Part shown: positions 2,848 to 34,635 of the stretch, piece after piece | Layout: every line of letters begins with the position of its first letter | How positions within the stretch are numbered: the first letter of the stretch is position 1 | Source: a virus | Direction: 5' to 3' (one strand) | Virus record (IMG/VR): IMGVR_UViG_3300025137_005873 | Coordinates: 1 to 34,635 of that record | Length of the DNA: 34,635 nucleotides | Notes under the pieces: generated by a model | The model's database searches: none | What the model saw: the letters and a program-made list of their open reading frames with translations, nothing else | Told to the model about the DNA's origin: nothing | Made by a program: the position numbers and the translations under genes

Positions 2848-3294
2848 TTAATTTATTTCAATAGTTTTTGGCTTCATTGCATCTGGAATAATCTTTTCTA
2901 AGTGAATACTTAAAATTCCGTTATTCAGACTAGCATCCTTTACTTCAACGAAATCAGCAAGATTAAACGTTCTAGTAAAGTTACGATTTGCGAGACCTTT
3001 GTGTAGGTACTCATATCCATCTGCTTCATCTAATCCATCAACATCTTCTTTAGTTTGGGCACCGGTTACAGTTAACGTACCGTTTTCCATAGTAATAGCA
3101 ATATCTGGTTTTAAGAAACCAGCGGCTGCAATTTCAATAAAGTAGTGTTCATCATCTTTACGGATAATGTTATATGGTGGATAATTTTGTTGTGATGCCG
3201 CTTCCATGTTGCTTGAAATTCTATCAAAAAGTTGATTGAATCCAATTGAGTTGCGGTAGAATGGATTTAAGTCCAGTGAGGTAATTCTTGTCAT
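2848..3294 (-). CDS. hsp20: Hsp20 small heat-shock protein
   Basis: A 148-residue IbpA-type small heat-shock protein, an ATP-independent holdase that keeps unfolding proteins soluble. It has the N-terminal FDRISS region, the alpha-crystallin domain (about residues 35-130, with YNIIRKDDEHYFIEIAAAGF) and the GILSIHLEKIIPD end of that domain. T4-like marine phages commonly carry such a gene. I start it at the ATG preceded by AAGGAGAACTAAA, eight codons inside a longer TTG reading. It sits behind a consensus promoter (3389-3417) with an 85-90 base leader that contains a hairpin. Its place beside clpS and the membrane unit fits a protein-homeostasis function. Confidence 0.92.
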   Translation of the reverse strand: MTRITSLDLNPFYRNSIGFNQLFDRISSNMEAASQQNYPPYNIIRKDDEHYFIEIAAAGFLKPDIAITMENGTLTVTGAQTKEDVDGLDEADGYEYLHKGLANRNFTRTFNLADFVEVKDASLNNGILSIHLEKIIPDAMKPKTIEIN

Positions 3295-3334
3295 TTTAGT
3301 TCTCCTTATAATAAGCAAGATTTATATGTTGGAA

Positions 3335-9893: not shown

Positions 9894-9970
9894 TGGTGAA
9901 CCGTGGAAGATTCGAACTCCCGACCTCTTGATTCGTAGTCAAGTGCTCTATCCGGCTGAGCTAACGGTCC
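9894..9970 (-). tRNA. tRNA-Arg (anticodon ACG)
   Basis: A 77-nt tRNA with encoded CCA. Acceptor GGACCGT/ACGGTTC, D arm GCTC/GAGC, anticodon arm CTTGA-CTACGAA-TCAAG, variable AGGTC, T arm GGGAG-TTCGAAT-CTTCC, discriminator A. It reads CGU (and CGC/CGA after A34 deamination by host TadA). Confidence 0.95.
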
Positions 9971-9978
9971 ATAATAAA

Positions 9979-10055
9979 TGGCGAGAGTGACGAGACTCGA
10001 ACTCGCGACCTTCGGCGTGACAGGCCGACGCTCTAACCAACTGAGCTACACCCCC
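9979..10055 (-). tRNA. tRNA-Asp (anticodon GTC)
   Basis: A 77-nt tRNA with encoded CCA. Acceptor GGGGGTG/CACTCTC (two G-U pairs), D arm GCTC/GAGC, anticodon arm TCGGC-CTGTCAC-GCCGA, variable AGGTC, T arm GCGAG-TTCGAGT-CTCGT, discriminator G. Eight bases separate it from tRNA-Arg, so they are co-transcribed. Confidence 0.95.
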
Positions 10056-10062
10056 TCGTGTT

Positions 10063-10150
10063 TGGCATAGGTGGAAGGATTCGAACCCTCTAACTGTTTC
10101 CAGTTCTAGTTTTGGAGACTAGTGTGACACTCCATCTTCACCGCACCTAC
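10063..10150 (-). tRNA. Class II tRNA with CCA (Trp) anticodon
   Basis: An 88-nt tRNA with encoded CCA. Acceptor GTAGGTG/CACCTAT, bases 8-9 CG, D arm GTGA/TCAC, anticodon arm CTAGT-CTCCAAA-ACTAG giving anticodon CCA, T arm GAGGG-TTCGAAT-CCTTC, discriminator G. Between anticodon and T arms is a 15-nt variable arm, AACTG-GAAA-CAGTT plus A, forming a five-pair hairpin. Bacterial tRNA-Trp is class I with a short variable region; a long arm belongs to Ser, Leu and Tyr tRNAs. G73 is compatible with both Trp and Ser. C8 replaces the near-universal U8. Either an aberrant tRNA-Trp or a Ser-type tRNA with a changed anticodon. Confidence 0.8.
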
Positions 10151-10908: not shown

Positions 10909-10936
10909 ATAATAGCACAGCTAGGAGATATGTCAA
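10909..10936 (-). promoter_or_regulatory. Early sigma70-type promoter for 76-residue gene
   Basis: Minus-strand TTGACA (10931-10936), 16 bases, TATTAT (10909-10914), then AAGTAGTAAGTTAAAAAAAGGAG. Its start region repeats AGTAAGTTAAA of the promoter at 10596-10623. Confidence 0.8.
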
Positions 10937-10947
10937 CCTTTTTTGTC

Positions 10948-10970
10948 AAAAAAATACAACTTTTCTGTTG
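10948..10970 (-). terminator. Weak terminator after tmRNA
   Basis: Minus-strand GCAAC-AGAAAA-GTTGT stem of five pairs (one G-U) followed by a run of seven U. It lies just after the tmRNA coding piece. The stem is short, so termination may be partial. Confidence 0.5.
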
Positions 10971-11261
10971 CCAGGTAAGTTGCCAACCCCTACATACCTA
11001 AATTAGGCTGCTAGTGCCATTTCTGGCGCATAATTGTCATTTGCAATTATAAGTTTCGTTCGCGATAACCGTGCTTACATCCGGACAACTCCACTCACCT
11101 AATTAATACCAGTCGATCCTATTTCGCCCCCATCATATACACTCTGCGTCTGTCCTTACTTTAGGGTACCATCTAGTTCTGGTAACTACAAAGTGTATAT
11201 GGTGGAGGCGCCGGGTACCGCCCCCGGGTCCTGTCTATCGTTGAGTTCGCTTCAACATTGT
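10971..11261 (-). ncRNA. ssrA: Permuted two-piece tmRNA
   Basis: tmRNA rescues stalled ribosomes and adds a degradation tag. Transcribed right to left, the acceptor piece comes first: T stem CCGGG/CCCGG, then CGCCTCC, discriminator A and CCA ending at 11200. An intervening segment (11132-11199) follows, with ATATACACT/AGTGTATAT near its ends forming a helix that extends the acceptor stem. The coding piece starts at 11131 with GGGGGCG, which pairs with CGCCTCC, and continues AAATAGGATCGACTGG, the typical tmRNA 5' motif. The resume frame (11003-11044) encodes ANDNYAPEMALAA and stop. This order is the permuted form known from alphaproteobacteria. The T loop GGCGGTA departs from TTCGANT. The outer ends are estimates. 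Confidence 0.93.
11003..11044 (-). other. tmRNA tag reading frame (ANDNYAPEMALAA)
   Basis: Fourteen codons from GCA to TAA. The first residues AND and the ALAA end are the hallmarks of ssrA tags; the AA end is what ClpX and ClpA recognise, and the first residues are the SspB contact in hosts that have it. The Ala carried by tmRNA itself would precede it. Confidence 0.95.
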
Positions 11262-11267
11262 ACCTTA

Positions 11268-11296
11268 TTTATAGCATAAAAACGCAGAAAAGTCAA
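11268..11296 (-). promoter_or_regulatory. tmRNA promoter with overlapping late motif
   Basis: Minus-strand TTGACT (11291-11296), 17 bases, TATAAA (11268-11273). The -10 box runs on as TATAAATA (11266-11273), the T4-type late promoter element, so tmRNA could be made both early and late. Confidence 0.75.
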
Positions 11297-11307
11297 TAAA
11301 TAAATGT

Positions 11308-33047: not shown

Positions 33048-33635
33048 CTAGTACACACTCTTTATAGCATCTGCTATACCATACTTAACTGCTTCTTTGG
33101 CACTAAGCCACTTATCCTCAGGTGGAAGTAATACTTCACGGATAATTTTTTCTTTTAATCCAGTACACTTTTTGTAATGCTCTAACATACGTTCTGTACT
33201 AAGTTCAAACTCACGTACTCTTGCAAACAGTTCATGTTCTTTACCACTACTGCCCCAACTGTATTGATGAGATAAAATACTTGTATTTGGTGTTAAAATA
33301 CGTCTGCCCTTTTTACCTGCCATAAACGTTAGTACACCGCAACTTGCGATAAGTCCTAAACCAACAGTTTTAATTGGAATAGCACTACCTTTCATTGTAT
33401 CAATAAGTGCAAATGCGGCATGTACACTTCCGCCTGGACTATTAATAACTAGTGTTAGTTCTTTTGGACGTTCATTACTAGGAAGTAAATTCTTTTCAAT
33501 AATCCATTGTACAATAGGCTTAGTAGATTCAAACGTAAACCCATCTGCCAAGTAGTAGATTCCTGCATTCCACATAAGTTCGCCAGGTTGACGTGATGGA
33601 GTTGACGCAGTTGATTTTGCTTTGTTGTTACTCAT
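33048..33635 (-). CDS. clpP: ClpP-type serine protease
   Basis: A 195-residue ClpP (S14) protease; barrel-forming subunit of the Clp machine, which degrades unfolded and tagged proteins after an unfoldase feeds them in. The triad is complete and almost at E. coli spacing: S98 (GLIASCGVLTFMAG), H123 (SILSHQYSWG) and D174 (PPEDKWLSAKEAVKYG). The substrate-binding strand NSPGGSVHAAFAL is intact. I start at the ATG after GGAAATAA, ten codons inside a longer reading that would overlap uvsW; this gives a one-base gap from the uvsW stop. The N-terminal axial loop differs from bacterial ClpP, so docking to host ClpX/ClpA needs proof. Prohead protease function is an alternative. Confidence 0.9.
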   Translation of the reverse strand: MSNNKAKSTASTPSRQPGELMWNAGIYYLADGFTFESTKPIVQWIIEKNLLPSNERPKELTLVINSPGGSVHAAFALIDTMKGSAIPIKTVGLGLIASCGVLTFMAGKKGRRILTPNTSILSHQYSWGSSGKEHELFARVREFELSTERMLEHYKKCTGLKEKIIREVLLPPEDKWLSAKEAVKYGIADAIKSVY

Positions 33636-33636
33636 T

Positions 33637-34635
33637 TTATTTCCAATCTGTTTTTTGTAGCACAAATGGATATTTGGCCTCTTTGTAAAATTGTTTTCTT
33701 TTAGTCAAGTGTCTTTTTGCATATTTGCAAGTACTTGTTATGTCCCATATTTGAACATGATCTTTATCTTGGGCTTTACGAATACCTCGTCCAATACTTT
33801 GTATTACCCTTACGAAACTCTTGCCTGGCTCTAACAGGACAAGGTTAAATATACGTGGTATATTAATACCAACTGCGGCAACACCGTATGTTGCAACAAT
33901 AATTTTGTTGTCTACATCTGCAATTTCATCATAGTGTTCTTTTCTGTCTCCGGCTTTAGTTGCTCCACTAATGAATACTGCGTTGTCTCCTATTTTCCTT
34001 ACTAAGGATTTTCCTGATTCAACACGGTCAACTAGTATTAACGTATTACCCGAGTCTCCAATAGTATTAAATAATGAGGCAAGATACTCTAAACGTTTTT
34101 CGTCTGTAAGTAAATACTTTAACTCACTTTGATAATTACTATAATCTCCATGATCAATTAGTTGTACAACACTAACTTCGCAGTTACTAAGTACACCTTG
34201 CTCTTGCAATTCACTAGCACTCTTACGTCCTACAACTTCTCCCAAACTTACCAACAGACTCATAAACTCAAACATCTCTTTTGGTATTGTGCCTGTTAGT
34301 CCCCAACGAATTGGAACTTGACTCATTACGCCTGTAAGTAATGTTTTTAATGCATCTGCTTTTGCCATATGCACTTCGTCAACAATAACACATACTACAT
34401 CTTCAAGAAACTCTTGTATAGTAACTGGTGCTTCTGCATTACGAGTATTCTTTAACAGAATATTTAAACTTTGCCAAGTGCAAATAGTATGCTGTTTGCC
34501 AAACTCTTTTCTATCGCCATAATACACACCAACATCTAATCCTAAATTAATATAGTCTTCTTCTGTTTGTGTAACTAAACTTTTATTAGGAACAATTACA
34601 ATACTTCGTCCATATGTCTCAACTAGATTACTAAG
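33637..34635 (-). CDS. uvsW: UvsW-type DNA/RNA helicase, truncated by window edge
   Basis: Open at its 5' end: the frame runs through the window edge (34635), with IVIVPNKSLVTQTEEDYINL before the first internal Met. It is a superfamily 2 helicase: motif II DEVHMAKADALKTLL, motif III GLTGTIPKEMFEF, motif V-type IIVATYGVAAVGINIP and motif VI QSIGRGIRKAQDKDH. T4 UvsW unwinds branched DNA and R-loops and switches origin-dependent to recombination-dependent replication. Walker A is outside the window. It is the first gene seen of the 33-30 kb cluster, with ClpP directly downstream. Confidence 0.92.
   Translation of the reverse strand, partial: LSNLVETYGRSIVIVPNKSLVTQTEEDYINLGLDVGVYYGDRKEFGKQHTICTWQSLNILLKNTRNAEAPVTIQEFLEDVVCVIVDEVHMAKADALKTLLTGVMSQVPIRWGLTGTIPKEMFEFMSLLVSLGEVVGRKSASELQEQGVLSNCEVSVVQLIDHGDYSNYQSELKYLLTDEKRLEYLASLFNTIGDSGNTLILVDRVESGKSLVRKIGDNAVFISGATKAGDRKEHYDEIADVDNKIIVATYGVAAVGINIPRIFNLVLLEPGKSFVRVIQSIGRGIRKAQDKDHVQIWDITSTCKYAKRHLTKRKQFYKEAKYPFVLQKTDWK

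Follow-up and report, generated by a model that had tools for sequence, protein, structure and literature searches.

A permuted tmRNA in a marine T4-like phage and its exchangeable intervening segment

Through decades of work on transfer-messenger RNA (tmRNA), the permuted form's spacer has been regarded as waste. A locus on the minus strand of IMG/VR record IMGVR_UViG_3300025137_005873 raises the question of whether a phage may carry such a permuted tmRNA as a working gene, and of what its spacer contains. This 34.6-kb fragment of a viral contig has genes for a replicative helicase, a primase, a helicase and a ribonucleotide reductase, and its whole length of 34,635 nucleotides (nt) is referred to below as the window. 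We consider it likely, with good confidence, that the locus represents a functional phage permuted tmRNA transcribed from a combined sigma70/late promoter, and that the segment between its two pieces, hereafter the intervening segment (IVS), is a modular cassette with exchangeable cargo. A preliminary description of this DNA had taken positions 11132-11199 as waste; the IVS proves to be the unusual part of the gene.

Identity of the Permuted tmRNA Gene

The same description had proposed a permuted two-piece tmRNA on a phage, and this was confirmed by covariance search, by gene calling and by the acceptor stem itself. In cmscan (Infernal), the minus strand of the window at 10953-11300 matched the permuted alphaproteobacterial-type tmRNA, RF01849 (alpha_tmRNA), over the full model with 135.1 bits (E 5.5e-37; gathering cut-off 50), RF04321 (tmRNA_permuted) also matched at full length at 11003-11261 (111.9 bits), and ARAGORN independently called a permuted tmRNA at 10912-11296 with the tag ANDNYAPEMALAA. 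The acceptor arm CGCCTCC-A-CCA (11210-11200) is encoded ahead of GGGGGCG (11131-11125), the two forming seven of seven pairs, and exactly 68 nt (11132-11199), the IVS, separate them. The acceptor stem retains G3-U70, with U70 opposite G3, and the CCA and the tag are intact, a resume codon and the degradation tag ANDNYAPEMALAA with its stop being present at 11044-11003. Judging from these features, the permuted tmRNA gene in the window is functional and belongs to a marine phage of the T4-like kind: its identity as a tmRNA is given by the sequence, and its processing and its part in ribosome rescue are predicted. Two mature RNAs would presumably result from removal of the IVS, for which the covariation of its closing helix, described below, offers indirect support.

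Exchange of the Intervening Segment

The window and its sister contigs L002 and L003 have mature pieces that are 100% identical (70 + 190 nt) and flanks that are 93-99% identical, and their IVSs measure 68 nt in the window versus 30 nt in the sisters. The window's 68-nt IVS recurs in 17 other IMG/VR contigs, in all of them between the acceptor arm and the coding piece, and the six contigs with this IVS that were scanned with Rfam all held permuted tmRNAs (6/6). The tags around the window-type IVS differ (ANDNYAPEMALAA, AEDNFAIAA, ADENLALAA and ANDNASNVFSFVDFSDARKYVNEDFAIAA), as do the acceptor stems. To the IVSs of tmRNAs with other tags and acceptor stems, that of the window is 88-97% identical, their coding pieces being only 59-74% identical; across divergent pairs sharing the window-type IVS, mean identity was 94% for the IVS, 75% for the 5' piece and 64% for the 3' piece.

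In a broader set of 185 distinct phage tmRNAs, pairwise identities, which constitute the evidence for exchange, revealed 24 pairs that have the same body but different IVSs and nine in which different bodies share one IVS. The clearest series (L138/L140/L153/L172) has bodies 99.5-100% identical with IVSs of 72 nt (RNA), 205 nt (gene), 29 nt and 29 nt (both empty), and the 205-nt IVS of L140 has its match in L119, where body identity is about 75%. The breakpoints of exchange adjoin CCA-TAA on one side and TTATGAT-GGGG on the other. Several IVS types were seen in independent contigs, and phage IVSs ranged from 4 to 235 nt in length, with structured RNAs or complete small protein genes as contents. 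At the sequence level, these comparisons show the IVS to behave as a swappable cassette whose movement between phages is not tied to the tmRNA body.

A Conserved Closing Helix

The nine-base helix that had been assigned to the ends of the segment is in fact a helix of 12 pairs lying inside it (11199-11188 with 11147-11136), and with this closing helix the window segment has a minimum free energy of -19.5 kcal/mol (z -3.7). Phage IVSs 40 nt or longer numbered 124 distinct sequences; in 116 of these the longest end-to-end helix fell in a common register, leaving the TGAT unpaired, and at least eight helix pairs were found in 95% of the 124 versus 2.7% of shuffles. For the 11-bp closing helix in 55 phage IVSs, 94.7% of cells were paired and changes on both sides occurred at 11/11 pairs, giving a covariation score of 0.845 versus 0.244 in shuffles (0/500 reached it), with slid controls at 0.191 or below. 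Because the IVS borders had been set mainly by acceptor pairing, with the helix contributing a small bonus only, circularity in this test is limited. The pattern of substitutions shows that the closing helix is evidently kept by compensatory change.

RNA and Protein-Gene Cargo

Inside its closing helix, the window IVS has an ACC/GGU hairpin with a loop predicted to form a pseudoknot with the strand that immediately follows, and the pseudoknot partners vary together among window-type IVSs (UA/UA, CU/AG and GU/AC). This IVS has no open reading frame (ORF) of the gene-like kind described below for its relatives. The window cargo thus described appears to be a conserved pseudoknotted RNA with a presumed role of its own. 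No free-standing window-type RNA was present among the 17 contigs, and no copy was found in 385 genomes of the alphaproteobacterial class. A search of 11120-11215 against Rfam returned no family besides tmRNA, with only partial tmRNA matches at E<=1, on which ground the window IVS was taken to contain neither a group I intron nor any other known RNA family. The non-coding IVSs of L089, L136 and L205 look similar by inspection, sharing a loop pairing (ATGCAC/GTGCAT, ATACAC/GTGTAT and CTGTAA/TTACAG). Stability in nested folding proved weak as general evidence for non-coding cargo and was set aside. As a separate observation, T-arm-like stretches occur in the IVSs of L208, L248 and L279 (GGGTTCAAGTCCC, GGTTCGAATCC and GGGTTCGATTCCC), perhaps tRNA-derived cargo comparable to the published tRNA-Ala case cited below.

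Many relatives carry instead a complete small ORF in the IVS, equipped with a Shine-Dalgarno sequence and terminated by a stop codon, in many cases the TGA within the conserved TGAT. The IVS ORFs of L118 (E 6.5e-12) and L270 (E 2.9e-8) both exceeded the Pfam cut-off for DUF6356, and L025 has a free-standing DUF6356-like homologue upstream of its tmRNA. The IVS ORF of L119 is 68.9% identical (1e-22) to gp85 of phage Melnitz, an ordinary annotated gene immediately upstream of the Melnitz tmRNA, and several further cargo genes also have free-standing homologues; some tblastn matches first taken as free-standing lay inside tmRNAs missed by ARAGORN and were separated out. PHROGs searches with the IVS proteins yielded nothing significant. 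The ratio of nonsynonymous to synonymous substitution rates (dN/dS) was 0.07-0.35 for most cargo families, with values of 0.07-0.15 for the K family and of 0.12-0.35 for four more, the pairs L025/L453, L453/L384 and L407/L412 having been left out for wrong register. The IVS of cultured Melnitz, 142 nt long and identical in four Melnitz isolates, itself holds an unannotated ORF (MFKWLSKTRLVVITRDYF...) with GGAG shortly before the ATG, within the annotated SsrA gene (L381:9985-10437, corresponding to 45984-46436 in MZ577097.1); relatives of this ORF occur in L396, L432, L445 and L463. A start, a Shine-Dalgarno sequence, homologues and purifying selection were thus found for IVS ORFs in relatives, and on this comparative basis the coding nature of many cargoes may be taken as shown; their expression and function are presumed. 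The Shine-Dalgarno sequence lies inside the closing helix in 25/39 gene-type cases, and translation and processing of the cargo would therefore compete. Two further observations concern these IVSs: those of L409, L419, L427, L451 and L465 contain two overlapping ORFs, one a short frame of the MVxEMLGDSDEEP.. type and the other a membrane protein whose end is at the TGAT, and in gene-type IVSs the interior gives a more stable fold than its dinucleotide shuffles (mean z -1.45, n=53), in contrast to the non-coding IVSs considered below.

A Combined Sigma70 and T4-Late Promoter Sequence

Upstream of the window tmRNA lie TTGACT, a 17-nt spacer and TATAAATA, which places the sequence of a T4-type late promoter at the -10 position. 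Promoters of the form TTGAC-N16-18-TATAA(T or ATA) were counted at the phage loci included in this comparison, both directly upstream of the tmRNA and elsewhere on the same contigs. Directly upstream, TATAAATA occurred 109 times and TATAAT 11 times, versus 11 and 231 elsewhere (n=242), and among bacterial tmRNA genes TATAAATA was found upstream in only 1/55. On account of the phage counts, the reading of the tmRNA promoter as one of combined host-sigma70 and T4-late type is well supported, and the earlier suggestion that it doubles as a late box is upheld as a sequence feature; the phage late machinery would presumably make use of it. The features of the locus are collected in table 1.

Table 1. 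Positions of the tmRNA pieces, the IVS elements and the promoter in the window.
Feature	Position	Strand	Basis
-35 box TTGACT	11291..11296	-	Sequence; TTGAC with 16-18 nt spacing conserved upstream of phage tmRNAs
TATAAATA, -10 box and exact T4 late promoter octamer	11266..11273	-	109/120 promoters of this form at phage tmRNAs
Acceptor piece (T-arm, acceptor 3' strand CGCCTCC, A, CCA)	11200..11261	-	RF04321/RF01849 alignment; 100% identical in sister phage L002
IVS, 68 nt: closing helix and predicted pseudoknotted RNA cargo	11132..11199	-	Recurs in 17 other contigs; covariation
IVS closing helix, 5' arm	11188..11199	-	11/11 pairs double-changed in 55 phage IVSs; 0/500 shuffles
IVS pseudoknot strand 1 (UAG, in loop of hairpin ACC/GGU)	11173..11175	-	Pairs with 11162-11164
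IVS pseudoknot strand 2 (CUA)	11162..11164	-	Pairs with 11173-11175
IVS closing helix, 3' arm, then conserved TGAT (11135-11132)	11136..11147	-	Covariation; TGA is the stop of many relatives' IVS genes
Coding piece (GGGGGCG 5' acceptor strand 11131-11125, mRNA-like region; 3' end approximate)	10953..11131	-	RF01849, ARAGORN
Tag reading frame ANDNYAPEMALAA with stop	11003..11044	-	ARAGORN coding part 253-294

Proposed Mechanism

In the mechanism that we propose, the tmRNA gene would be read early and late from the combined promoter, and its precursor would fold such that the acceptor and coding pieces form a tRNA-like domain that the IVS helix closes off. The 68-nt IVS would be excised, and the two pieces released, by RNase P and 3' processing, and the two-piece tmRNA together with host SmpB would rescue stalled ribosomes during infection. 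Searches of the window, complete Melnitz and six further phage records turned up no SmpB; the tmRNA would therefore have to use the SmpB of the host, which we assume to be its partner. The IVS would be replaced as a unit, with a pseudoknotted RNA as cargo in the window and a small protein gene or an empty hairpin in relatives, since the cargo brings its own helix arms and leaves the mature RNA as it was. The cargo may act after excision, be translated before excision, or both. A more tentative extension, to which we give somewhat less than even credence, is that tmRNA processing serves as an expression device of the phage, in which the IVS would be delivered as a separate helix-capped small RNA or mini-mRNA and one strong early/late promoter would make both the rescue RNA and an interchangeable small effector. 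Should the spacer serve phages as a site that houses cassettes of small genes and structured RNAs, a class of nested genes is being overlooked by annotation pipelines, as with the Melnitz ORF that lies unannotated inside SsrA, and widespread marine phages would possess a new modular exchange site.

Alternative Explanations and Known Systems

That the phage captured an ordinary tmRNA gene from a host, as in Melnitz, with incidental IVS differences and nothing but extra ribosome rescue to offer, seems unlikely to us. Two-piece tmRNA has already been reported for Melnitz, and that report counts 53 cases in phage genomes, 50 of them from aquatic phages, and suggests that they keep the hijacked machinery running or tag host proteins (PMC9004378); a 2025 tmRNA database includes 79 bacteriophage sequences (PMC11915505). 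Like the phage of the window, Melnitz and the pelagimyophages of the former source are marine T4-like phages with an alphaproteobacterial-type permuted tmRNA and a TTGAC...TATAAATA promoter. The tag, the acceptor stem and G3-U70 are conserved as capture would predict, and the alphaproteobacterial permuted tmRNA (RF01849; Caulobacter, Keiler 2000) shares the piece order, the G3-U70 stem, the T-loop type, the LAA/VAA tag end and an IVS between the pieces. However, capture leaves unexplained the swapped cassettes on unchanged bodies, the protein genes in the IVS and the greater length of phage IVSs. In a bacterial set deliberately enriched for the longest matches (55 distinct IVSs from alphaproteobacterial genomes), lengths were 7-104 nt with a median of 28, whereas the median phage IVS was 68 and 63 nt in two scans without start-site selection, and the phage IVSs are cassette-exchanged and sometimes gene-bearing. 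In ten isolate phages (of Caulobacter, Ruegeria, Phaeobacter, Rhodobacter, Mesorhizobium and Erythrobacter), the IVSs are 88-109 nt long and contain no evident gene. In most of these, including the Caulobacter phages CcrBL9 and CcrSC, no tmRNA is annotated at the site of the permuted tmRNA (L511, L512 and L514-L519), and the hypothetical protein UUV44828.1 of Rhodobacter phage RcRudolph (OP009285.1, L510:660-995), which overlies a permuted tmRNA, is probably a false gene.

The phage-borne two-piece tmRNA itself is not new; it is the IVS cassette that appears to be new. Melnitz differs from the window, with its RNA cargo, in the unannotated ORF of its IVS, a segment that the accessible part of PMC9004378 does not describe. 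A complete gene inside the IVS of a permuted tmRNA is likewise known from GCA-2688965__sp002688965.2, but that is a single case of one tRNA-Ala in a nominally archaeal bin, with neither a protein gene nor cassette exchange reported (PMC11915505). Group I introns with homing endonuclease genes also put a protein gene in a segment removed from pre-tmRNA (PMC11915505), but they are self-splicing, lie in the T-loop of one-piece tmRNA and carry an endonuclease, whereas the phage IVS lies at the permutation junction and has no intron family match. Our literature search found no report of protein genes in the IVS of permuted tmRNA, an absence that is unproven given incomplete coverage of the subscription literature.

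Several observations weigh against reading the IVS as a cassette with functional cargo. The scan that yielded most gene-type IVSs selected for GGA...ATG near or after the CCA; in scans without such start-site selection, the 119 distinct IVSs comprised 41 short ones, 67 long ones lacking a Shine-Dalgarno ORF (homology marks a few of them, L241, L260 and L270, as coding) and 11 that have one, so that some 11-15 of the 119 look gene-bearing and most remaining long ones look non-coding. The interiors of non-coding IVSs are not unusually stable in nested folding (mean z -0.32), one window-type pseudoknot variant (CU/AC) breaks a pair, dN/dS carries less weight for L119/L090 (0.60) and L414/L425 (0.52) and reaches saturation in certain pairs, and the loci are mostly metagenomic contigs. 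The absence of unusual nested stability in many non-coding interiors would fit a neutral filler, in which any insert that spares the closing helix is tolerated since it is excised, and gene scraps or random sequence come and go; the extreme variability of IVS length and content and the empty hairpins of 21-40 nt, which are as common, would fit it too. We regard neutral filler as improbable, nevertheless, in view of the low dN/dS (0.07-0.35) in several cargo genes, the presence of both a Shine-Dalgarno sequence and a stop within the IVS, the two members of a curated Pfam family, and the 94% conservation of the window-type RNA versus 64-75% for the working tmRNA, with changes that preserve pairs.

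Still less probable is that the phage tmRNA competes with or diverts that of the host, for instance through a phage-specific tag that changes which protease handles the rescued proteins. The claim that the phage tmRNA has its own tag holds good: the tag family A[ND][ND]NYxPEMALAA is near phage-exclusive, with 97 IMG/VR stretches and only one contig of a GTDB species genome. The window further encodes ClpS and a ClpP-family protease, and a tmRNA of phage DS6A that lacks a coding sequence inhibits host tmRNA in Escherichia coli (cited in PMC11915505); against such competition, the tag ends in the standard LAA and the mRNA-like domain is intact. Finally, an assembly or binning artefact behind the IVS variants, which the preponderance of short metagenomic contigs among the loci might suggest, is hardly credible given the same 142-nt IVS in four Melnitz isolates, ten isolate phage genomes with IVSs and the recurrence of several variants across independent contigs. 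The functional phage tmRNA with an exchangeable IVS cassette remains our preferred reading.

Tag Relatives and Neighboring Genes

The sole GTDB contig with the tag family (L176, PALK01000009.1; 29,883 bp) has the same length as IMG/VR contig 2823577039_000001 and looks like a phage contig inside a Rickettsiales metagenome-assembled genome. One bacterial genome (G303) holds three permuted tmRNAs (L354, L359 and L360), one of which has the tag ANRKALGFADLTVGMSKMRLAA, close to the ANKKALGFADLTVSMPELRLAA of phage L216. In the window, the minus strand also encodes the ClpS adaptor (882-1187; Pfam E 4.9e-26), the ClpP-family protease (33048-33665; E 2e-31) and an Hsp20 chaperone (2848-3318; E 7e-15), which together with the tmRNA form a possible proteolysis and quality-control gene set. 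A cluster of tRNA-Arg(ACG), tRNA-Asp(GTC) and tRNA-Trp(CCA) lies on the same strand at 9894-10150, about 0.8 kb downstream of the tmRNA.
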